Shown piece by piece: positions 5,785-17,256 of a stretch of DNA of 64,000 nt. A program made the position numbers and the translations under genes. Below the pieces are notes generated by a model. The model saw nothing but the letters and a program-made list of their open reading frames with translations, ran no database searches and had not been told where the DNA came from. The first letter of the stretch is position 1; every line of letters starts with the position of its first letter. Origin of the DNA: Gemmatimonadaceae bacterium (GTDB lineage Bacteria > Gemmatimonadota > Gemmatimonadetes > Gemmatimonadales > Gemmatimonadaceae); NCBI GenBank assembly GCA_036273715.1, contig DASUHB010000072.1, positions 62,001 through 126,000 on the forward strand, written 5' to 3'.

Positions 5785-6231
5785 TCATTGGCCAACGCTG
5801 GCCGACGTCACGTAAAACTCGGTGTCGCCGAAACACGATGTCGGCACACCGCGGTGCTCCTCGAACGTGAGCGCGACACGCTTCCCCATGTTCTGCTCGA
5901 TCTGCTTCGCCACGGCTGCGTCGCGCACCGTAAAATGGAAAATCTGCGGCATGGTCCCAGGCAGGTTCGCCATGGCCAACTCTCCCTCCCACGTCTTACA
6001 CACCCATCCCTCTTTCGCAAACTTCTGCACGTAACCCGATCGCTCGCCGTGTCCGTACGAAAACGTCAACGTCGACCATCCGTACAGCACGAACAACAAA
6101 ATCGGAATCAGAAATACCATGGCGACGTATCGTTTCCACTTGAGCCGGCGACGCTTCTTCGGTGCCGGGTCCTGTGCCGCCATGTCTTCCGTGTTGTACG
6201 CCCTCGGCGGTTGTTCCATGTCGTCAACCAT
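5785..6231 (-). CDS. Membrane-anchored hypothetical protein
   Basis: 148 aa; I do not recognise a characterised family. A basic stretch (KKRRRLKWKR, about residues 25-34) precedes one strong hydrophobic helix (about 36-52), giving an N-in topology with a small extracytoplasmic C-terminal domain. That domain contains CKTWEGELAMANLPG and ends FYVTS. Similar short single-span proteins are widespread in environmental bacteria without known function. There are two cysteines in the outer domain. It is convergent with argH and separated from it by a terminator, so it is unlikely to belong to the arginine unit. Confidence 0.6.
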   Translation of the reverse strand: MVDDMEQPPRAYNTEDMAAQDPAPKKRRRLKWKRYVAMVFLIPILLFVLYGWSTLTFSYGHGERSGYVQKFAKEGWVCKTWEGELAMANLPGTMPQIFHFTVRDAAVAKQIEQNMGKRVALTFEEHRGVPTSCFGDTEFYVTSASVGQ

Positions 6232-6331
6232 GTGGCAGCTCCAGTAGAGTAGAGTTCCAGCGTCGGAGCCGGGGCCGCGTCGCCCGCGGCGGCCGCATCC
6301 TTTCGCACATCGGTCCCGTTAGGTTTCGCGC

Positions 6332-7591
6332 ATGACCTTCGCGACTCGCCGGCACACCGTCACCACGGTAGTGGGCGGCATCCCGGTTGGAAGCTCCCAT
6401 CCGGTGGTGGTGCAGTCCATGACCAACACCGACACCGCGGACGCCGAAAGTACCGCGGCACAGGTCATCGCGCTTGCGCGCGCCGGGTCCGAGCTCGTGC
6501 GCATCACGGTCAACACACCGGAAGCAGCCGCCGCGGTCGAGGAGATCGTTCACCGGGTAGCAGACGCCGGCGTCCAGGCTCCGATCATTGGCGACTTTCA
6601 CTACAACGGACATCTGCTCCTCGATCGCTATCCGGCCTGCGCCCGTTCGCTCGCCAAATATCGGATCAACCCCGGAAATGTGGGCGGCAAACGACGCGAC
6701 GAGAATTTCCGTACGATAGTGCAGATCGCCGTCGCGAACGACAAGCCCGTCCGCATCGGCGTCAACTGGGGATCGCTCGACCAGGACCTCCTGACAGCGC
6801 TCATGGATGAGAACGCGCGGAGCGCCGTGCCGCGCGATGCCCGTGATGTGTACATCGACGCGATGCTCGAAAGCGCGCTGCGCTCTGCTCAGCTCGCCGA
6901 GGAGACGGGGCTCGGCCACGACCGGATCATTCTCTCCGCGAAAGTGTCCGGCGTGCGCGATCTCGTCGATGTCTATCGACTGCTGGCCCGGCGCTGCGAC
7001 TATCCGCTGCACCTTGGCCTTACGGAAGCGGGCCTCGGCATGAAAGGCACGGTCGTGAGCACGGCCGCGCTTTCGATCCTGTTGGGCGAAGGTATCGGCG
7101 ACACGATCCGTGTGTCGCTCACGCCGCGTCCCGGCGGCGACCGCACCGAAGAGGTGCTCATCGCCCAACAAATCCTTCAGTCCCTCGGCTTGCGCACGTT
7201 CACGCCGCAGGTTTCGGCGTGCCCGGGGTGCGGACGCACGACGTCCACATTCTTTCAGCACATGGCCGAGGACATTCAGACGTATTTGCGCGAGCAGATG
7301 CCGGTGTGGCGCACACGGCATCCCGGCGTCGAAGAAATGCGCGTCGCCGTCATGGGATGCGTCGTCAACGGACCGGGCGAGTCGAAGCACGCGAACATCG
7401 GCATCTCGCTGCCCGGCACGTTCGAAGAGCCGAAGGCGCCGGTGTACGTGGACGGAAAGCTCGCCGTCACGCTCAAAGGCGATCGCATCGTTGCGGAATT
7501 CCTGTCCATTCTCGAGGACTACGTGGCGCGCACGTATCCGGCGCCGAAGGACGCCGCGTTACAGCCACCGTCGGTCGCGGCGTCTACCTGA
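6332..7591 (+). CDS. ispG: 4-hydroxy-3-methylbut-2-en-1-yl diphosphate synthase (flavodoxin/ferredoxin)
   Basis: IspG (GcpE) reduces 2-C-methyl-erythritol cyclodiphosphate to HMBPP in the MEP isoprenoid pathway; 419 aa. The N-terminal TIM-barrel half starts at [19 protein letters not shown], the classic IspG opening. The C-terminal half carries the [4Fe-4S] ligands, seen in ACPGCGRTT (CxxC) and later GCVVNGPGE. The [10 protein letters not shown] block is diagnostic. It is a single-gene unit whose 3' end overlaps the convergent downstream gene by 8 nt. Confidence 0.96.
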
Positions 7592-8708
7592 GCGGCGGCG
7601 CGCCCCTGGGCAGGCGCGGACTCCGCTTGCCTAACGTCGCGATCATCGCGCCGAGCTCGTCCATGATCGGCGCCTCGAATCCGGTCTGGACGAGACGAAT
7701 GTAGACGTTGTGGAACCACGGAAGGGCGCCGTCTCCCCCGGCCAGCGCGTTCGCCTGCGACACGACGTCGTCGGGAAAACTCGTCCGACTCAGATCGGCC
7801 AGGAGCGTGCCCGCGGCGTGCAGCATCACCGCCGCGATCACCCACTTCCCGCGCTCGTCCGCTCCGCCGATCCGGTCGAGGAGATCGGCCCGCCGTTCAT
7901 CCGACGACAGCTCCACGTATTCATCGTCGTTTCGCCGTTCGACGACATTCGACAGCGCGCCGAGCACGGCCGCCCCGAACTTCTCGCCGACGCGCGCGTT
8001 CAGCACGTCCTCGGCCGCCCCGTCGCGCACGTAGTCCTGCACGACGTCGCGGAGCACGCCGGCCACGACGGTGTCGTCATCGCGGCCATAGCGCGACAGG
8101 ATCACAGCTACGTTAGGCGCGGCCGTGAGGTACGGCAGACGCGTCCCGCGCCGCACCTGTTGATCGTGGTGCTTGGCCGCGAACGCGAGCGCGTGGTTGA
8201 TGCGATCCGAGTAGCCCGTCTTCAGTCTGGCGAATCGCCGCACCAGCATCTCGAGTCCCGCCGCGTCCTCATCGCCGAAGGTGTCTTTCGTCTCCGAATC
8301 GATGTCGAGCACGGCGATCAATTCGATACCGGGACCGAATACCGGCACCACGATTTCGGACTGCGCGCGCGCATCGCACACGATGTGGTCGGGGAATTCC
8401 TGCACGTCGGGCACGACGATCGTGCGGCCCGTCTCGGCCGCGCGCCCGCACACGCCGCGTCCGAACTCTATCGTTAGGCAGCCGAGCGTTCCCTGGTACG
8501 GACCGACGACGAGCTGGCGTCCCGGCACGGCGACCTGATAGAATCCGGTCCACAGGAAGCCGAACGCGTGATGCAGCACGGCCGACATCGTCGACATGAT
8601 GGCCACGCGATCCGCAATGCCCTCGAGCACCGCATCGAGATGCGCATCGACTTGGGCGTACGCCGCCGCGCGCGGCGCACCGCGCAGGTCGAGAATCGCT
8701 TCAGCCAT
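7584..8708 (-). CDS. Free-methionine-(R)-sulfoxide reductase (GAF) fused to degenerate SpoT/RelA-type HD domain
   Basis: 374 aa with two domains. Residues about 15-160 match fRMsr, a GAF-fold enzyme that reduces free methionine-R-sulfoxide. All three signature cysteines are present (C77 in LGCLTI, C87 in RGVCGRA, C111 in HIVCDAR), with SEIVVPVF and LDIDSE. Residues about 172-330 resemble the RelA/SpoT hydrolase domain ([21 protein letters not shown], about 173-193). The metal ligands are lost: the His of the PYxxHP motif is Ala196 and the HD pair is Arg220-Asp221 (VLRDVVQD for LLHDVVED). The first domain should be active; the second is probably a non-catalytic sensor or scaffold. It overlaps ispG convergently. 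Confidence 0.8.
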
Positions 8709-8732
8709 CGAAAGCCATCCTGCCGGTTTGCG

Positions 8733-9167
8733 TTAGGCGCCAGTCGCGAGGCGAGCCAGGAAGAGACGGTCGAGCACGAACAGCACGCCCCCGTGAGCAA
8801 CGAGCGCCATGCCGATACCGGTGAGATCCAGCCGCTTCACCAGCGCGACCCCCACCCAGATCACCACGGCCGCCACAGCCACGAGCCATGCGTCGCCGAT
8901 CGTCGCCAGCCGGACCTGCGCCGTGAGGCGCAGCGCGCTCGCGAAGTCGCGCTCCGCAAGGCCGCGCAGCCGCACCAACGCAAACCCACACTCCGCCACT
9001 CCCCACACCGCCATCGTGCCGGCGAACCAGACCGCAAGCGGGGCGCGCGCCCGTTGCACGCGCAGCGCCACGATCACTCCCGCACCGAGCAGGAAACTCG
9101 ATGCGCCCCAGATGAGGAGCTGCAACACGTGAAGCCGTTCCACGACCAACAGATCCGGCGACCACAC
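8733..9167 (-). CDS. Four-helix integral membrane protein of unknown function
   Basis: 144 aa with about four predicted transmembrane segments (residues roughly 14-35, 43-62, 91-110 and 115-133), joined by short basic loops. There is no recognisable motif. It lies 24 nt upstream of the GAF-HD gene on the same strand and is probably co-transcribed with it, which might link it to the same stress function. Its TAA stop (8733-8735) lies inside a copy of the dispersed GTTAGGC word. Confidence 0.55.
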   Translation of the reverse strand: MWSPDLLVVERLHVLQLLIWGASSFLLGAGVIVALRVQRARAPLAVWFAGTMAVWGVAECGFALVRLRGLAERDFASALRLTAQVRLATIGDAWLVAVAAVVIWVGVALVKRLDLTGIGMALVAHGGVLFVLDRLFLARLATGA

Positions 9168-9232
9168 GTCAGGTGCGTCGTTCGAAAAGTCGTCGTGCGC
9201 GGCTCACCCGTGCAATGTATGCCCCGCGCGCG

Positions 9233-10138
9233 TCACGGAGCAACGAGAAGCGCGGGCTGTCGCTCGTTGGCGGTACGGCTGAGCACCACCGTCGTTTTCG
9301 TGGACGACATCGTGAAGGAGACGATCGCGCCCGACGTATCGGATGGGTTGGTAACGCCAAGGCACAACTTCGCATTGCACGTCGGCTCGCCGATGCCGAG
9401 CGAGTCGCTGGCCAGCTGCGTCGTCGCACCGGAACTGATGTCGACGCGCTGAATCGTGGGCACGCCGCTTCCGGACTGGTAGATGATCGACTTGCCATCC
9501 GCTGACCAGACGGGAGAAAACGCGCCGCCCGCCTCGTGGCTCACTTGCGCTGCAGCACCACCCGCCGCGGGAACCACGAATACCTGCGGTGTACCGGTTC
9601 GGGTCGAGGTGAACGCCAATTGAGATCCGTCGGGACTCCAGACCGGAGATTGCTCGGGCACACTTGCGTCAGTGCCGGTGGCGAGCGCGGTCGCTGTCGA
9701 GAATCCGGTGTCCGACAACGCCGGCGCCGGTACGATCCAGATACGTGGCAGCCCGCTGCGATCGCTCGTGAACGCAATGAGATCGCCCGCAGGCCTCAGC
9801 GCCGGCTCGAAATCGTTTGCCGCGCTGTTCGTCACCCGATGCTGCGTTGCGCCGAGGGTATCGGAGATGTAGACCTCTCGATTTCCGTCGCGATCGGAGG
9901 TGAAGACGAGCATGCCCGCGGCACTCCGAGGATCCGTGTCGTTGCCGCCGTCGTTGGTGATCTGAATCGAGCTGTCGCTGCGAAACAGAAAGAGTTGCGA
10001 CGGCCCTGTCGCATCTGACACGTACACGAAAGTCGGCACACTGTGAATGCCGGGGGCTGTCGACGTGCTCGAGCAGGCAGTGAGCATCGCGATGCATGCA
10101 ATCGCTACACAGCTGGCTGGACGCACCGCGCACCTCAT
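9233..10138 (-). CDS. PD40/TolB-like beta-propeller lipoprotein
   Basis: 301 aa. The signal peptide ends in a lipobox LTAC with Cys22, so it is membrane-anchored and outside the cytoplasm. At least five PD40/WD40-like blades follow, with repeats such as LVFTSDRDGNREVYI, IAFTSDRSGLPRIWI, PVWSPDGSQLAFTS and PVWSADGKSIIYQS, the SPDG(K/S) signature of TolB C-terminal propellers. The ATG overlaps the stop of the upstream PqqD-like gene (ATGA), so it is translationally coupled to the RiPP-like operon. It could be an extracytoplasmic binding partner for the operon product; that is inference. Confidence 0.75.
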   Translation of the reverse strand: MRCAVRPASCVAIACIAMLTACSSTSTAPGIHSVPTFVYVSDATGPSQLFLFRSDSSIQITNDGGNDTDPRSAAGMLVFTSDRDGNREVYISDTLGATQHRVTNSAANDFEPALRPAGDLIAFTSDRSGLPRIWIVPAPALSDTGFSTATALATGTDASVPEQSPVWSPDGSQLAFTSTRTGTPQVFVVPAAGGAAAQVSHEAGGAFSPVWSADGKSIIYQSGSGVPTIQRVDISSGATTQLASDSLGIGEPTCNAKLCLGVTNPSDTSGAIVSFTMSSTKTTVVLSRTANERQPALLVAP

Positions 10139-10401
10139 GCAGATGTCGCTTCAACGAGTCGCTCGGCAACCAGGTCGTCGAGCAACTGATGCACCGCTCG
10201 CGTGGCTTCTGGCACCTCGACATCGTATTCCCGTACCAATGCTTGGACGATTTCCTCCTCGGTCGGTTGCAGTTGCAGTAGCGACCAGATTCGCGACCCC
10301 GTCTCGTTGAGCGAGAAATAGCGCTTCGTATAAAGATTCAGCAGTACTGCGCCGTCGCTCAGGGAAGCAGAGAGCGCGTCCGACACGATGCGATATCGCA
10401 T
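10135..10401 (-). CDS. PqqD-family peptide chaperone (RiPP recognition element)
   Basis: 88 aa, a complete stand-alone PqqD/RRE domain: beta-rich N-terminus with DGAVLLNLYTKRYFSLNETG, then helices with RIWSLLQ, EEIVQALVREYDV and HQLLDDLVAERLV. The (Y/F)F.LNE(T/V)G.(R/L)IW block is the strongest marker of the family, which binds leader peptides of ribosomally made peptides. The frame extends upstream to 10437, but the ATG at 10399-10401 couples to the kinase stop (TGATG). It is positioned between the HPr-kinase-like gene and the propeller lipoprotein, with overlaps on both sides. Confidence 0.85.
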   Translation of the reverse strand: MRYRIVSDALSASLSDGAVLLNLYTKRYFSLNETGSRIWSLLQLQPTEEEIVQALVREYDVEVPEATRAVHQLLDDLVAERLVEATSA

Positions 10402-11228
10402 CACCGGGCCGCCGCCATGATGGTGCTGTGCACGCACGCCAGTTGGGCAGGCGTATGGCGCAGGGTAAAGCAGGGTACCGCCTCCACCAACTCGCGCAGC
10501 GTCTCGAGGTGGGCCGCGGCATGATGATCGGTCAGCATCAGAAACGTCGCCTGGCGCACGAGCATCGTGAGCGCGCGCGTCGACGAAAGCGGGGACATCG
10601 AGTCGTGCGGGCTCCGCTCCACGGCGATGAGGCCCGCAATTGCCGCGCGCTTAACAAAAGTGGCGTCCACGTCCACGCGATGCCGTGCGTCTTGCCAATC
10701 GACGAGATGGTCGTGTCGTCGCAGCTCCGGAAACCATTCTGCCAGCTCGATGCTCACACGCAGTGGATCGCGCCAGCCGTGCGCGATCATTCCGCTCGCC
10801 GTGTGCTCGAGGACGACACCATCTTCGCCTAACACGCGCCATCCACCGCGGGCGAGCGCGTACGCGAGCGTCGACTTCCCGGAGCCCGTTTCTCCCATCA
10901 GCAGCCACGCGGCACCATCGGGCGCAACGACGCCCGCGGCGTGCAGATGATACCGAGCATGCTGCCGCAGCTTGAGCATTGCTCCGACACGGGCCAACCG
11001 CTGTCTGGTTAGGCGAGGCGCGGCGGCGTAGCCCGGACCGCGCATCAGCCGGCCGCCGGCAAGCCGGAGCTCCGCGCGATACTCGGCATCGACCAGGCGG
11101 GACGCAGCGCCGGCGGTTGTGCCCTCGACGAGGCCGCAACGCCAGTGCGTCTCCCGGCCATCACCGGATGCACGAACGGGGGCGCCCACCTGTGGTGCGC
11201 CCCCGCCCGCAAATTCCATCGCCGCCAT
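10401..11228 (-). CDS. HPr kinase-related P-loop protein
   Basis: 275 aa. The C-terminal half matches the HprK/P kinase core: LHAAGV (96-101), Walker A GETGSGKST (112-120) and LGEDGVVL (133-140, corresponding to the acidic Walker B-like block). The N-terminal 90 residues are not the HprK N-terminal domain and look family-specific. HprK-related kinases paired with small PqqD-like proteins recur in bacteria (a pairing I recall named HPr-rel-A), and HprK-like kinases phosphorylate the C-terminal Ser of some lasso precursors such as paeninodin. It lies 20 nt downstream of the putative precursor. The substrate is unknown. Confidence 0.75.
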   Translation of the reverse strand: MAAMEFAGGGAPQVGAPVRASGDGRETHWRCGLVEGTTAGAASRLVDAEYRAELRLAGGRLMRGPGYAAAPRLTRQRLARVGAMLKLRQHARYHLHAAGVVAPDGAAWLLMGETGSGKSTLAYALARGGWRVLGEDGVVLEHTASGMIAHGWRDPLRVSIELAEWFPELRRHDHLVDWQDARHRVDVDATFVKRAAIAGLIAVERSPHDSMSPLSSTRALTMLVRQATFLMLTDHHAAAHLETLRELVEAVPCFTLRHTPAQLACVHSTIMAAAR

Positions 11229-11248
11229 TGGAGCTCAGTGCGTAGCGA

Positions 11249-11518
11249 TCAGTGTCGCGGCGGACCGGAGGCGCCGCCCTGCGCCGTCACTGGCTGACCG
11301 GCGCTGGTACCTGAGGGACCTACGCCGCCGCCGCCGACGCCGCCCGTCGAGCCGCCGATACCCTGCAACAGCAGCATCACATCCGACACGCCCAACACGC
11401 TCTGCGTTAGCACACTCATGGATGCGTGCGCCGTCAGTTGCGGCGCTGCCCACGGCCGTCTGCTACTCGGCGTCGACTCCAGCGATGCGTGTGCAGGCAG
11501 TGTCATGGTCTCTCGCAA
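11249..11518 (-). CDS. Putative RiPP precursor peptide with WxxPxL leader and Gly-rich core
   Basis: 89 aa (85 from the ATG at 11506). The leader contains RRPWAAPQLTAHASMSVLT (about 20-38), which fits the YxxPxL...T leader pattern bound by lasso-type RREs, with Trp23, Pro26 and Leu28. The C-terminal portion (53-89) is Gly-rich with interspersed Ser, Thr and Pro. It lies at the head of a four-gene operon with an HPr-kinase-like protein and a PqqD protein. No lasso cyclase or transglutaminase-like protease is nearby, so the product class is open. Function is inferred from size, motif and context only. Confidence 0.55.
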   Translation of the reverse strand: MRETMTLPAHASLESTPSSRRPWAAPQLTAHASMSVLTQSVLGVSDVMLLLQGIGGSTGGVGGGGVGPSGTSAGQPVTAQGGASGPPRH

Positions 11519-11627: not shown

Positions 11628-12968
11628 TTACGGCTGAGATACGCCGATTCCGTATGTGATGACGCTCCAAGCCGAGTTGTGGTTGCCTGAAATGCTGCCG
11701 TCGCCGAAGAACTCGGCAGGTCCCGTGGTGAACGACGCCACCGAGTCCTGCGCCACCGAAGGCAATTGACTGTACGTCAGGCGAAGGCGCCGCGTACCGT
11801 CGATTTCGAGAGTTACGCTATCGGTTCCGAACTTGCGCAAACGATAGGTGTGGCTGGCGGTCGCATCGTTCGACAAGCTGTCCACGAAATTCGCTTGCGG
11901 CAGTCCGTGACCGAAAAACCCCGGCGCCAAGAAGGCGTACTTCACAAAACCGATCCGGGCATTGGTCATTCCGATGGCCGCCATCCTGGTACCATCAAGG
12001 AATCCAAACACCGTTTCCGGCTTGGTCTGCCCACTACTCACCTTCACGTGCGCCTCGAAATACGCCGGCGTTGCGGCCGCGAGCGAGTCGCGGCGGAACA
12101 AGTAGTAGTCCTTGGCATTCTGCGGCTCGAGCGAATCAACTCCCTGCGATTTGGACCACGCCTCCGTGGCGGCGCCGAACGCCGACATGTTGCCCGTCCG
12201 CCAGATCGGTTTCGCATGCTGATCCGGCGCCGAGTCAGTCGGAGCATTGTAGAACACGCTCCAATTCTGCTGCGCAGGAGCCGGCCAGTCCGCACCGACA
12301 ATCAACACGAACGTCATGGCCGTTACTTGCGTCGGCGACGTCCACGTGAACGGGCGACGAACGCTGACGGTGTCGGCGCCCGGCACTGCCTGCTTCACAG
12401 CCAGCCGCTCGCGCCAATAGAGATATCGCTGGTTAGGCGCGGTAAACGTGCCCGTGCCGTCGTAGCCGACGGTCGAAACTGCGCAGCTGCCCGGGCAATG
12501 GCTCGACGTCTTGCTAACGGTGGGACCACTGATCAGCGCCAGGAAGATGCCGGTCGTGTCGCTCGGCGTCGATCCGCCTTGATTGCTGCCGATCGGAAAC
12601 GCCAGCAGATTACGCAGACCGAAGTTCATGGTCCAGGTCTTGGTGCTGCCCTTGATAACCGACGTCGCAGCTTTCGCATAAACGTGCACGTTCACGTCTT
12701 GCGAGCCGTAAATCGAGCCGTCGATTCCGGGCGCCAAATCGCTCGACGCTCCCTGCAGCGGCACCGTGGTGACGTTCCCGGCGTCGTCCACCGTAACCTG
12801 CACCATGCCAAGGCTCTGCGAGGGCAGCATCGGCGGAGTCTGCGGTTGCATCACGCCCGTGCCCGTAACTCCAGCCGACCGATCACTACAACCAACAACA
12901 GCCGCCAGCGCAGCCATCACGCCCGCAGCGCGAATTGCCGAAGAATGGAAACCAAGGCGCCGAGACAT
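11628..12968 (-). CDS. Secreted lipoprotein of unknown function
   Basis: 446 aa. I start at the ATG at 12966-12968, which has a good GGGGAAG ribosome site; the longer frame to 13028 adds 20 atypical residues. The signal peptide ends LAAVVGC (lipobox, Cys near residue 27). The mature part is rich in Ser, Thr and Gly, with beta-strand-like segments and tryptophans (WTMNFGLRN, YLYWRERL, FTWTSPTQV). The C-terminal half (FEAHVKVSSG to the end) has the character of a lectin or concanavalin-like sandwich, but I cannot assign a family. It lies upstream of the RiPP-like operon on the same strand, separated by a hairpin. Confidence 0.6.
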   Translation of the reverse strand: MSRRLGFHSSAIRAAGVMAALAAVVGCSDRSAGVTGTGVMQPQTPPMLPSQSLGMVQVTVDDAGNVTTVPLQGASSDLAPGIDGSIYGSQDVNVHVYAKAATSVIKGSTKTWTMNFGLRNLLAFPIGSNQGGSTPSDTTGIFLALISGPTVSKTSSHCPGSCAVSTVGYDGTGTFTAPNQRYLYWRERLAVKQAVPGADTVSVRRPFTWTSPTQVTAMTFVLIVGADWPAPAQQNWSVFYNAPTDSAPDQHAKPIWRTGNMSAFGAATEAWSKSQGVDSLEPQNAKDYYLFRRDSLAAATPAYFEAHVKVSSGQTKPETVFGFLDGTRMAAIGMTNARIGFVKYAFLAPGFFGHGLPQANFVDSLSNDATASHTYRLRKFGTDSVTLEIDGTRRLRLTYSQLPSVAQDSVASFTTGPAEFFGDGSISGNHNSAWSVITYGIGVSQP

Positions 12969-13190: not shown

Positions 13191-14642
13191 TCAAGAGTTG
13201 CGATCGTCCGGCCGCGCGGCTGCTGGGATCGGTTCGCCGCGATTCCACATTAAGATCCCTCGGCTATGCGCCCCGCGGTCCCGAATCAATCCCGTTAGTC
13301 GGCCGAGTGAGCTCACCGGTGTGCGTGCGACGCGCACCACCACTACCGGCGTGGCCACCGTCGCCGCCAAACCCAGCTCGCCCGCTCGCGACATCGGTGC
13401 GCTCAGCAGCACGCAGTCGTAGCGGCGTCCAACGTGCTCCAATAGTTCAGACACATCTGCAATCATCGAGTCCAGCGCTTCGTGAACACCGAACGCACCG
13501 CTTGGCAGCACATCGAGCGTTCGATCGCGACCGACAGTCACGCTTCGCACTACCGCGGCCCAATCATGTCGGCCGGCAAGGACGTCGACCAGGCCCGGCG
13601 TACCGGGCAGACGCGTTACCGATGACAGGGATTGCCGCTCGACGTCGGTGTCGATAAGCAACACATCGCGCACCTGTCGAGCTGCAACCGCGCCAAGGTT
13701 CGCGGCGACGACGGCAGTCGTGACCGCGTGCTCTCCCACGATCGACAGCAGCGGCAAGTTGTCCGACTGGTCGGCGAGTTGCGCGTACAGCAGCCGATAG
13801 GCATCCGACGTGAGGTCGACTAACGGAGGTGTCTCCAGGTCCGCGCGCCGACGACGAGCTGGCGCCGCCGGCGCTTCGCCGATCGACGCCAACACCGGCA
13901 CGCCGGCGATCGACTCGGCTTCGTCACCGTCGGCAACGCGCGGCTCGCGCAGCTCGAGCGCCAGCGCAAACGCGAATCCGATGACGCCGCCGAGTGCCGC
14001 CGCTCCTGCAAGCATGGCCGGAACGGATGCACCGAAGGCGTCGACGGATTTCGCCCGCGCATCGGCCGAATCCATGTCGCGATCCACGTCGCGCGCCTGC
14101 GCCAGCCATCGGCGCGCCGACGTGAACGCGGCAACCGCCGAGTCATGTGTCCGGGCGAGAGCTGCTGTATCGAGTACAGACGTCGAAGATGTCGAGGTGC
14201 CGCGCGCCGTGTCAGTGACGCTCTCCGGACGTGCGTTCAAGAGCCGGGTAGCGGCGAGCGTCGAATCCGATCGATGTGCGACGGACCCAGCCATCGCGAT
14301 GTGCTTCAGGATTTCAATCGTGTCCGGACGCGGACGCACGAGCGGAAGGCTCGCTCGCATGGCGCTTCGCTCCTGTAACGGTGCGATAACCGCCGCCAGC
14401 AGCACGACAACGAACACAATCAGTCCGACGGCGCTCACGAGGAGCGGCCGTCGATAGACGTTCCGTGCGCGACGCCGAATCCAGCCTGGTGCGTGCGGAG
14501 TTGACCTGAGCAACGCCGGTGCAACGAGAGGCTGCGTGTGCTCTGCTTCGGCACTCGTCGCCTCCGTCACCAGATTTTCTCTCGTCTCCTCCACGCTGCC
14601 TGACTCGGACATTGCTCCCACGTAGGCCGTCGACTCTTTCAA
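13191..14642 (-). CDS. Wzz/BY-kinase-like polysaccharide co-polymerase with degenerate ATPase domain
   Basis: 483 aa with chain-length-determinant architecture: cytoplasmic N-tail, TM1 (about 66-88), an extracytoplasmic segment (about 90-205), TM2 (about 206-229), then a cytoplasmic BY-kinase-like domain. That domain keeps a Walker A'-like VLLIDTDVER (327-336), but the P-loop position reads IVGEHAVTTAV (301-311), with no GK(S/T). There is no C-terminal tyrosine cluster. It probably binds partners but not ATP. The extracytoplasmic segment is far shorter than in typical Wzz proteins. It lies 33 nt downstream of the protease gene on the same strand. No glycosyltransferases are visible nearby. 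Confidence 0.6.
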   Translation of the reverse strand: MKESTAYVGAMSESGSVEETRENLVTEATSAEAEHTQPLVAPALLRSTPHAPGWIRRRARNVYRRPLLVSAVGLIVFVVVLLAAVIAPLQERSAMRASLPLVRPRPDTIEILKHIAMAGSVAHRSDSTLAATRLLNARPESVTDTARGTSTSSTSVLDTAALARTHDSAVAAFTSARRWLAQARDVDRDMDSADARAKSVDAFGASVPAMLAGAAALGGVIGFAFALALELREPRVADGDEAESIAGVPVLASIGEAPAAPARRRRADLETPPLVDLTSDAYRLLYAQLADQSDNLPLLSIVGEHAVTTAVVAANLGAVAARQVRDVLLIDTDVERQSLSSVTRLPGTPGLVDVLAGRHDWAAVVRSVTVGRDRTLDVLPSGAFGVHEALDSMIADVSELLEHVGRRYDCVLLSAPMSRAGELGLAATVATPVVVVRVARTPVSSLGRLTGLIRDRGAHSRGILMWNRGEPIPAAARPDDRNS

Positions 14643-14675: not shown

Positions 14676-17147
14676 CTACGGCTCGCCGAACGGGTCACCA
14701 GGGGGCGCAACGAGAGCCTTGGTTGGGGTGGGCAGCTCGCGGCGGTCGATCCAGCGACGGTAGTCTGCGGCGATCGAGGCCCAGTGCGCACGCTCGGCAA
14801 ACGAATCGGCGGCGCGCTCGCGACGTTCGGCCGTTGCGCGAAGATTCGTGATCTCGAGCTCGGCGATTGCCCTCACTTCTTGCGCGGCATCGTGATCGGA
14901 TGCCAGCAGGAGCAGCTGATCCGCGACCGCACGCTGCGCTACGCGCTGCAGCGCCGCGAGCTTCGGCGTCGGCGGCTTCCTCGCGCCCCACGTGGCTCCT
15001 GTTAGGGAGTCAATGACTTCCTCGAGAGTGAGCGGGCTCGACTCCGACGTCGCGAATCGAACTACACGGGCCGCGCGCTCGGGTTCGAGAATAATGCTCA
15101 CGATCATTTGCGCCAGGGTTCGCGCGGCACCGAACTCGTCGAACGCGGGGCGCGTGCGACTGCCGAACAGTTCCTGAGACTCTTCGTACGAGAACGGCCG
15201 CGGTCCCAACAAGGTCAAGACCGTATCGGGGATCGCCAGCTCGGCCGGCGCGAGCGCGCCTAACAATTGATGCAAGGCCGCTCGCTGCTGCGTTGCGGGA
15301 ATCGGTTGCGTCTCCGCCTGTCCGTCGCCACTCACCGCGTTGGCGTACTCCATGCCGCCGATCGTCTTGCCTAACGAGTTGAGCGCAAAGCGATGCAGGA
15401 AGTACACGGGCGCGAACCGTTCTTGCAGCAGCGCGACCGGTTCATCGGGTCGGATGTTGCGCAACCCGAACCCGGCAATTGCGGCGCGTCGAACCGCCAT
15501 CTGATCGTGGAGAAAATTCGATGCAGAGGCCTGGTCGTCCCACAAGTTGGTGCGCGGATCGGAGGCGAAGTCCGGACGTGCATCGGCATCCGAAAGGAAC
15601 AAGTAGCCTTTGCGCAGTCCGTCGGTGACGATTGCGCGAAGCGAGTCCGCTTCGCTGGCGCGCGGGAAAATGCCGTAGCCCCAATGGATCGCCCACACAT
15701 CGTACGCGCCCGGACCAGCGGCATAGGCCTGGCTGATATCGATGCGTCCATCGGGCGCCATGTGGACGCGCGGCGGCGGATAATCCATGACGGATCCCCG
15801 CTCGTACGTCGATGCGATGTAGTTGTGCGCCAGGCCTAACGTGTGCCCGACCTCGTGCGCCGCCTTCTGTCGCACGCGGGCCAATACGAACGCCGTGTCG
15901 GCCGCAGATGACGCGGCGCCCATGAGGCCCGCGTACAGATTGTAGTCAGTGCGCTCGCGGTGCGAATCGAGCCGCGCCATCCCCTTGATGATTTCTCCCG
16001 TGCGCGGATCGCCGAGCGAACCGCCAATGGACCATCCGCGCTCGTTGCGATTTTCCCACTGCACCACGTTGTAGCGTGCATCCATGGGATCGACGCCTTC
16101 TGGTAGATCCTCGACGCGGAAGGCGCCCTTGAGACCCGCCGCGTCGAATGCCGTCGCCCACCAGCTCACGCCTTGTTTCACCGCGGTGCGGATTGGCTCG
16201 GGGATGCCGCGGTCGACGTAGTACACGATCGGATTCTTGATCGGGCTGTTCGGGTCCGATGGAGTGACGCGCTCCAAGCGGTGTCGCGCGATCCACCGCT
16301 GCTCGAGAGAACCCTGAACGGGCTGGCCGTAGTCCTTGAACGTGACGCCGAAATATCCGACGCGAGGATCGAGCGTCCGCGGCTCGTAGGCGCTGTCCGG
16401 AAGCGGGAGCAGCGACAGGTGCTGGCGCAACGTGATTGCCGAGGGATCCGGCACGATCGCGGAGACGATGTCGCCCGCCTTTCCGTTAGTCAGCGCGAAC
16501 GTCAGCGAGGCGTCGATTTCCGTGTTTGCCGGAAACGCTTTCGTGTACGGCACGAAGATGGTCGATCGATCGCGGGCCAGCGCATACGAGCCTTGCTTGT
16601 TCGCATCGAGCGTTTCCGCAACGTGCGCCCAATCGCGGAACACCAGCGGGGTCGCATCCACGATCAGGACGCCCGAATGCTCGTCGACGATTGGCAGCGC
16701 GGCGACGGTGCTCGGCGGAAACGACTCGTGTACGCTGCGCACGTTGTCCTGGTTAGGCGATGAACTGCGATAGTTCCAGTTCTCGAGCACCAGCAGCACG
16801 TGGTTCCCGGCCCGATCGAATCGTGCGACGAAGGCAGCGACGTCGGCGCCCCGGTCGAGTCCGATCGGATTCGAGCCCAATCCCGTCGCGAGCGACACGA
16901 AAAGGAGCGCGCGCGTCGAGTCGCGAGGAATCTCGAGCAGTACGCGCTCGCCCTTCGCATCGAGGTCCAGCGGGAGAAACCCGTCCCAGTGCTGCGTGCC
17001 AGCCGTCGCGCTCGGGTGCGCCGGGCGGAGGCTGTCGTTAGGCGACGTCACCTGCGCTGCAGGCTGGACCGCGGGGACTCGTGCGTGCTGGCTTGCGCAC
17101 GCAACAGCAGCCAGGCCCACGGCAAGTCCGGCAAGGGTTCGCTTCAT
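14676..17147 (-). CDS. Zinc-dependent metalloprotease lipoprotein (DUF5117/DUF4953 type)
   Basis: 823 aa. The catalytic motif HEVGHTLGLAHNY is the extended zinc-binding HExxHxxGxxH of metzincins, and a Met-turn candidate, VMDYPPP, follows. Large secreted proteases of this architecture, with a long N-terminal DUF5117-like part and C-terminal DUF4953-like part, are common in Bacteroidota and Gemmatimonadota. I start at the ATG at 17145-17147, giving MKRTLAGLAVGLAAVACAS with lipobox VACA-like Cys19; the longer frame to 17243 reads through the upstream terminator. No clear Shine-Dalgarno. Substrate unknown. Confidence 0.8.
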   Translation of the reverse strand: MKRTLAGLAVGLAAVACASQHARVPAVQPAAQVTSPNDSLRPAHPSATAGTQHWDGFLPLDLDAKGERVLLEIPRDSTRALLFVSLATGLGSNPIGLDRGADVAAFVARFDRAGNHVLLVLENWNYRSSSPNQDNVRSVHESFPPSTVAALPIVDEHSGVLIVDATPLVFRDWAHVAETLDANKQGSYALARDRSTIFVPYTKAFPANTEIDASLTFALTNGKAGDIVSAIVPDPSAITLRQHLSLLPLPDSAYEPRTLDPRVGYFGVTFKDYGQPVQGSLEQRWIARHRLERVTPSDPNSPIKNPIVYYVDRGIPEPIRTAVKQGVSWWATAFDAAGLKGAFRVEDLPEGVDPMDARYNVVQWENRNERGWSIGGSLGDPRTGEIIKGMARLDSHRERTDYNLYAGLMGAASSAADTAFVLARVRQKAAHEVGHTLGLAHNYIASTYERGSVMDYPPPRVHMAPDGRIDISQAYAAGPGAYDVWAIHWGYGIFPRASEADSLRAIVTDGLRKGYLFLSDADARPDFASDPRTNLWDDQASASNFLHDQMAVRRAAIAGFGLRNIRPDEPVALLQERFAPVYFLHRFALNSLGKTIGGMEYANAVSGDGQAETQPIPATQQRAALHQLLGALAPAELAIPDTVLTLLGPRPFSYEESQELFGSRTRPAFDEFGAARTLAQMIVSIILEPERAARVVRFATSESSPLTLEEVIDSLTGATWGARKPPTPKLAALQRVAQRAVADQLLLLASDHDAAQEVRAIAELEITNLRATAERRERAADSFAERAHWASIAADYRRWIDRRELPTPTKALVAPPGDPFGEP

Positions 17148-17219
17148 ACGCGAGAGACCGAGAATGAGAATGGGGCGGAGATGCGCGTGAAACGGCAGGT
17201 AGTCGAGGGGACAAATTAA

Positions 17220-17256
17220 TGCGGGGGCGAGAGTGACCGGCACCCTCGCCCCCGCA
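17220..17256 (-). terminator. Intrinsic terminator of cupredoxin gene
   Basis: Perfect 12-bp arms TGCGGGGGCGAG (17220-17231) and CTCGCCCCCGCA (17245-17256). On the minus strand it is followed by TTAATTT. It separates the cupredoxin gene from the protease gene downstream. Confidence 0.8.

Follow-up and report, generated by a model that had tools for sequence, protein, structure and literature searches.

A RiPP-like operon of Gemmatimonadaceae pairs a lasso-type leader with an HprK-like kinase

The operon described here appears to make a kinase-modified peptide by means of a lasso leader, a carrier protein and a protease, with no lasso-forming enzyme. It lies in the window, i.e. the whole stretch of 64,000 nucleotides that was analysed (contig DASUHB010000072.1, Gemmatimonadaceae bacterium). 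We think it probable, with a good deal of room for doubt, that the product is a RiPP other than a lasso peptide, phosphorylated with the assistance of an RRE, cut by a B2 protease acting in trans, and met outside the cytoplasm by lipoproteins. The gene content and its conservation, the leader register, the homology of the parts and a B2 of the right clade encoded in trans are directly observed and carry this reading.

Organisation and conservation of the operon

The features of the locus are as follows:

9233-10138, minus strand: secreted lipoprotein, PD40 beta-propeller, 301 aa, lipobox LTAC (PF07676, 1.3e-27)
10135-10401, minus strand: PqqD-type RRE, lasso B1-like, 88 aa from the ATG at 10401 (PF05402, 5e-19)
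10401-11228, minus strand: HprK-like P-loop kinase, 275 aa (HprK_rel_A, 1.8e-11, below cut-off; motif kept)
11249-11518, minus strand: precursor, TTG start at 11518; 85 aa from the ATG at 11506 (11249..11506)
11435..11452, minus strand: WAAPQL leader recognition motif, W(-17) P(-14) L(-12); spacing to T(-2) kept in 30/30 precursors
11252..11401, minus strand: predicted core peptide, after the inferred cut behind Thr34-Gln35 (Thr(-2) in 30/30; family B2 homologues)
11628-12968, minus strand: upstream lipoprotein, the precursor's conserved partner; family recurs in reduced and fuller clusters
13191-14642, minus strand: Wzc-like protein, Walker A not intact (EpsG, 9.3e-12, below cut-off)

The first-pass annotation had described a RiPP-like operon of four genes, from precursor to PD40 lipoprotein, with a 20-nt gap and TGATG and ATGA overlaps, all of which are found in the sequence: 20 nt separate the precursor from the kinase, the kinase stop (10403-10401) and the RRE ATG at 10401 form the TGATG overlap, and the RRE/PD40 lipoprotein junction is an ATGA overlap. 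Judged by relatives, the ATG at 11506 seems to fit better as the precursor start than the TTG, and for the RRE the GTG at 10437 is less probable as a start than the ATG. A promoter and terminator scan gave no excess over shuffled sequence. The PqqD match (Pfam, 5e-19), the kinase motif and the conserved precursor support the assignment as a RiPP-like operon with PqqD/RRE and HprK-like kinase. More generally, a short precursor with a conserved leader and a variable core stands beside a modifying enzyme and an RRE. The four-gene set is thus largely right, whereas the upstream lipoprotein, which has no Pfam or NCBIfam match, was overlooked as a conserved partner.

Conservation of this gene order in relatives had been proposed as a check, and it was found. 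Among the six genomes of the genus, the kinase lies at the same place in 5/5 congeners, each time with the precursor and its WxxPxL motif, neither of which is lost in any of them; the order lipoprotein-precursor-kinase-RRE-PD40 is held wherever congener contigs reach. Relative to the closest relative, G004, dN/dS is 0.36 for the precursor, 0.25 for the kinase, 0.17 for the RRE, 0.13 for the PD40 lipoprotein and 0.12 for the upstream lipoprotein. The excess of silent changes in the precursor is significant (Fisher P 0.004), and the precursor is a real gene under constraint. It is also the fastest-changing gene of the operon, as expected of a RiPP precursor.

In the family, the kinase is present in 19/179 Gemmatimonadaceae genomes of 7 genera. 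A profile scan of genome contigs with the kinase alignment returned mostly ABC-type ATPases, matching through Walker A; the only useful matches were L071 (Gemmatimonadaceae) and L072 (Bryobacterales), the latter with no PqqD or precursor match near its kinase. The Gemmatimonadaceae loci were typed by content:

Type A (G007, G116): precursor, lipoprotein, radical SAM/SPASM, kinase, PqqD and B2; in G007 also NTP_transf_5 and PD40
Type A' (G129, G130): radical SAM, kinase, precursor and PD40
Type B (window genus, G048, G054, G055, G057): lipoprotein, precursor, kinase, PqqD and PD40
Type C (second loci of G054, G055, G057; plus G058): type B content without PqqD
Type D (G022, G149, G150): kinase, nucleotidyltransferase and PqqD, no precursor recognised

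The G116 contig is JAICUE010000002, from a Gemmatimonadaceae MAG. In G129, PqqD, B2 and the nucleotidyltransferase lie together on a separate contig. In genus g34, three genomes have a pair of paralogous loci (L125, L126, L128 with L107, L121, L124), the second of which is devoid of PqqD and has a distinct core ending in QCF..GxPxPC(P). The L144 region of G129 (G129:C165:28352-29674) offers a second example of a divided system: the PqqD, B2 and NTP_transf_5 genes share one contig, and the genes for radical SAM, kinase, precursor and PD40 lie on another. In G007 (L057:5919-7808), nucleotidyltransferase and PD40 lipoprotein are in one frame with no stop between them, due either to a fusion or to a lost stop.

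Upstream, the Wzc-like protein (13191-14642) adjoins the upstream lipoprotein and is a conserved neighbour in the window genus and in genus g34; we are unsure whether it is a member of the operon. In a comparable place, G031 has another protein, Wzz-like by eye (L090:11050-12057). A Met-zincin family protein (DUF4953/DUF5117; window 14676-17243) is conserved beside the operon in the window genus.

Leader, kinase and lipoproteins

Congener precursors follow the pattern RRxWxxPxLxxHxSMTVLTQ, then a hydrophobic stretch, then a Gly-rich sequence or a Cys pair. The previously noted WAAPQL leader is confirmed, whereas the Gly-rich C-terminus is not a general feature: it occurs only in the window and G004, and in the other four congeners its place is taken by a Cys pair, as in ISCxxxGCG or the like. 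Trp, Pro, Leu/Val/Ile and Thr are found at 0, +3, +5 and +15 in 30/30 precursors of several families. With a cut after the residue that follows Thr, these become W(-17), P(-14), L/V/I(-12) and T(-2). Since the search motif itself contained the first three residues, and required Thr for the phylum set only, independent support for Thr comes from those precursors found by position or without Thr. This register is the one studied experimentally in the lasso precursor BsfA (PMC10368454), and W/Y/LxxP is a known range of RRE recognition sequences (PMC12710340). The leader therefore corresponds to the lasso type (YxxPxL with Thr(-2)) with W for Y, at scores short of the formal leader models: among NCBIfam matches, one precursor hit lasso_cyano (5.8e-4) and another rhodolasso (0.01), both below cut-off, and four precursors of phylum-level clusters had no match. 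Likewise, the RRE is of lasso B1 type by PF05402 (5e-19), and it matches the lasso PqqD models at 1e-14 and about 54 bits, short of their cut-offs of 70 and 80.

We propose that WxxPxL is the leader element bound by the PqqD-like RRE, which would hand the precursor over to the HprK-like kinase for phosphorylation. In the bsf system, the RRE accelerates phosphorylation of BsfA by the HprK-like kinase BsfK (PMC10368454). There, phosphorylation still took place when Y-17/P-14/L-12 were replaced by alanine (PMC10368454), and the WxxPxL motif alone is thus no proof of delivery to the kinase.

In the kinase, Walker A is well formed, but matches to HprK models all stay below cut-off (HprK_rel_A 1.8e-11, 43.7 bits vs 200). 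The enzyme keeps the motif H-G-G-G-K-S-(E/D)-D, in which the first Asp is replaced by Glu solely in the window and G004; H-G-G-G-K-S-D-D is the kinase motif of PMC10368454. Its substrate residue would differ from that of the phosphorylated-lasso kinases, which use a C-terminal Ser or core Ser3. Paeninodin-type precursors are modified on a C-terminal Ser, a site that the kinase cannot use here, since the last residue is His in the window precursor and something other than Ser in all five congeners. Position 3 of the window core is Leu, with Ser1 and Asp7 after the predicted cut, and the Ser/Thr residues in IGGSTGG or elsewhere in the core are candidate phosphorylation sites. Structure predictions had a mean pLDDT of 45 for the kinase (n=3) and 42 for the upstream lipoprotein (n=2), too poor for fold searches.

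It is unlikely, though a view to be reckoned with, that the enzyme is not a peptide kinase, i.e. that it uses ATP for another step such as carboxylate activation, or phosphorylates a lipoprotein or other protein, the precursor being only a carrier or modified otherwise. The score far below the HprK_rel_A cut-off is in line with this, as are the lack of any Ser/Thr invariant across the cores of the reduced group and the nucleotidyltransferase family member that accompanies the kinase in several fuller clusters. Against it, the motif residues are kept, and in lasso systems precursors are phosphorylated by HprK-like kinases that occur together with PqqD and B2 (PMC10368454, PMC8498205).

The suggested linkage to a propeller lipoprotein proved real and recurs across the phylum: in most of the family's clusters, a PD40 lipoprotein is linked to the kinase or PqqD. 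The PD40 protein also matches the lasso isopeptidase model, in the model's propeller portion, at 1.2e-13, below cut-off and over 69 residues only. Clusters of both the reduced and the fuller kind have a member of the upstream-lipoprotein family beside the precursor or the radical SAM gene. We infer from these lipoproteins that the product acts at or beyond the cell surface: it would be secreted, and the two linked lipoproteins would act on it outside the cytoplasm, most likely as binding or anchoring partners. As already pointed out in the first-pass annotation, an exporter is missing; none was recognised near any cluster seen. This fact, together with the discrete PqqD and the mycofactocin/SynChlorMet-type maturases found among the best matches (below cut-offs) of the fuller-cluster radical SAMs, would suit an intracellular regulatory or cofactor peptide made by precursor and RRE as in PQQ or mycofactocin. 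We consider a non-secreted product of this kind improbable, since secreted lipoproteins are a constant component of the clusters and no cofactor-using oxidoreductase was recognised nearby.

Protease in trans, missing cyclase and fuller clusters

B2 was previously listed as missing. It is indeed absent from the window cluster, but present in the window genome as an orphan gene on another contig (C37, about 64023-64436; PF13471, 1.2e-15), in the same clade as cluster-borne B2s. Two further B2s of this genome belong to its lasso clusters. B2 genes were found in 18/18 genomes checked. In a tree of 38 B2 proteins, in which long branches weaken single placements, the B2s of lasso clusters stand apart (support 97/95) from a second group consisting of the cluster-borne type A B2s and the lone B2s of the window genus and genus g34, and in both genera the lone gene lies near pyruvate kinase. 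A strong match (E below 1e-50; in G054, a gene divided between two contigs was counted as well) is present in 11 genomes, and 10 of these also carry the kinase. By chance, such a co-occurrence has a probability of about 1e-10 when genomes are counted and 6e-5 when genera are, both ignoring relatedness. The kinase-negative exception, G056, is a 68% complete genome of g34. No orphan B2 was found in G002, G003, G058 and G130 (genomes 68-88% complete), the B2 of G048 is more distant, and a close B2 is lacking in type D genomes. The G055 genome is 100% complete, and its PqqDs outside the type B/C loci all sit in a PQQ operon or in a lasso cluster equipped with B2 and cyclase; since each of these has its own partner set, the orphan B2 is left to the type B/C loci, with no other obvious partner. 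We propose that this B2, acting from its separate locus, cleaves behind Thr(-2)-Gln(-1) and so frees the core. By analogy with BsfK, BsfB1 and BsfB2, cleavage would likely follow RRE-assisted phosphorylation.

The window genome also contains a PQQ operon with PqqB, PqqC and PqqD (L019, G000:C38) and a lasso-like cluster with PqqD, cyclase, HprK-like kinase and ABC transporter (L017, G000:C11:84000-98000, 6094-10899). No B2 was found near the latter, which could be another client of the orphan B2.

A tblastn search with two cyclases of the window genome detected the cyclases of the genome's own lasso clusters, as a positive control, but gave no hit in the window or at any of 37 related loci, in agreement with the earlier remark that a lasso cyclase is missing. 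Of the lasso enzymes that might have adjoined orthologous genes, B2 does and cyclase never does. An acidic residue is needed for the lasso ring. Such a residue is found at core positions 7-9 only in the window and G004 and is absent in the other 12/14 type B/C precursors. We therefore hold it very improbable that the locus makes a lasso peptide, its cyclase being provided in trans, like its B2, by another lasso cluster of the genome. The lasso-type leader, RRE and B2, the Ser1 and Asp7 of the window core and the three lasso-like clusters with cyclases in the genome are compatible with it. It is largely refuted by the cores without an acid, namely 4/6 in the genus and 8/8 other reduced-locus (types B, C) precursors; in addition, fuller clusters carry radical SAM instead of cyclase, no relative adjoins a cyclase, and the only cyclase-bearing PqqD cluster of G055 has its own B2.

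A radical SAM alignment search of the phylum gave matches in 18/395 genomes of four families. These clusters share precursor and radical SAM enzyme, usually together with lipoproteins and PD40; as far as contigs reach, they also include differing selections of PqqD, B2, kinase and NTP_transf_5. Their precursors read WxxPxVxxLPRLTxLTL followed by a mostly Gly-rich core usually ending in STVF or similar. Fuller clusters include a lasso-type B2 above the NCBIfam cut-off, radical SAM/SPASM and NTP_transf_5; mycofactocin and SynChlorMet-type maturases are among the best matches of the radical SAM, by local similarity and below cut-offs. In the window genus, 5/6 genomes have no radical SAM match and G003 has a weak 32% local match. 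NTP_transf_5 genes are present in all genomes checked, none tied to the window locus. Sequence comparison thus indicates that the window operon is a reduced relative of a phylum-wide cluster with radical SAM/SPASM and often NTP_transf_5, and the suggestion of a minimal version of the kinase-PqqD system gains support from the absence of radical SAM here and the fuller clusters across the phylum. Type B kinases form one group in the kinase tree with moderate support (82/93; root unknown), and the history of type B is consistent with, without being proof of, a single radical SAM loss and B2 relocation. Elsewhere, small ORFs with FVRPxVxxLGxLTxxTL-type leaders adjoin HprK-like kinases (L241:13891-14100, L242:14159-14299); no cyclase was found in these two loci.

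That the reduced operon is a decaying, functionless remnant of a radical SAM cluster is hardly credible: radical SAM is gone, B2 and the nucleotidyltransferase have left the cluster and the precursor changes fastest, but dN/dS between window and G004 is low (kinase and RRE 0.17-0.25, lipoproteins 0.12-0.13, precursor 0.36), gene order is kept across three genera and B2 is kept in trans.

Implications and comparison with known systems

Beyond the phosphorylated RiPP proposed here, we tentatively suggest a Gemmatimonadota RiPP class in which the lasso leader code, RRE, B2 and kinase were kept and radical SAM replaced the cyclase; the window lineage would have lost radical SAM as well, leaving phosphorylation as its only dedicated modification, with a protease from another locus and dedicated surface lipoproteins. 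If true, leader recognition and cleavage in lasso systems form a separable module that non-lasso chemistry has taken over, with radical SAM in fuller clusters and the kinase alone in reduced ones. RRE, kinase and B2 would form a small, testable three-protein system for what an RRE delivers to a kinase, and genome mining would be pointed to clusters that cyclase-based lasso searches overlook.

A literature search found no description of this gene combination or peptide family. The closest parallels are as follows. With the phosphorylated lasso clusters (paeninodin/ThcoK; BsfA-BsfK-BsfB1-BsfB2; PMC8498205, PMC10368454), the system has in common the leader register, a discrete PqqD-type RRE, B2 and the motif residues of the HprK-like kinase, and the NTP_transf_5 of fuller relatives can be compared with the nucleotidyltransferase found in the pseudomycoidin and bsf clusters. 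Unlike them, the window operon has no cyclase, ABC exporter or C-terminal Ser and has Trp for Tyr(-17), most cores are without the ring acid, fuller relatives carry radical SAM, and secreted lipoproteins are linked. As in the NCBIfam HPr-rel-A system (TIGR04352, TIGR04353), which provides the best NCBIfam kinase match, an HprK-related kinase is paired with a PqqD-like protein, whereas the window proteins score below that system's cut-offs (kinase 43.7 bits vs 200, PqqD 24.6 vs 35). The SynChlorMet cassette comprises a kinase-like ScmC, a PqqD-like ScmD and the radical SAM proteins ScmE/ScmF, three kinds of protein that the fuller relatives also combine; all matches are, however, far below cut-offs, and the window version has no radical SAM. 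Finally, the system differs from sactipeptide, ranthipeptide and cyclophane RiPPs in its lasso-type leader and B2, its HprK-like kinase and, in the window version, the absence of radical SAM, while the fuller relatives resemble those RiPPs in placing a radical SAM/SPASM maturase beside a short precursor and an RRE.
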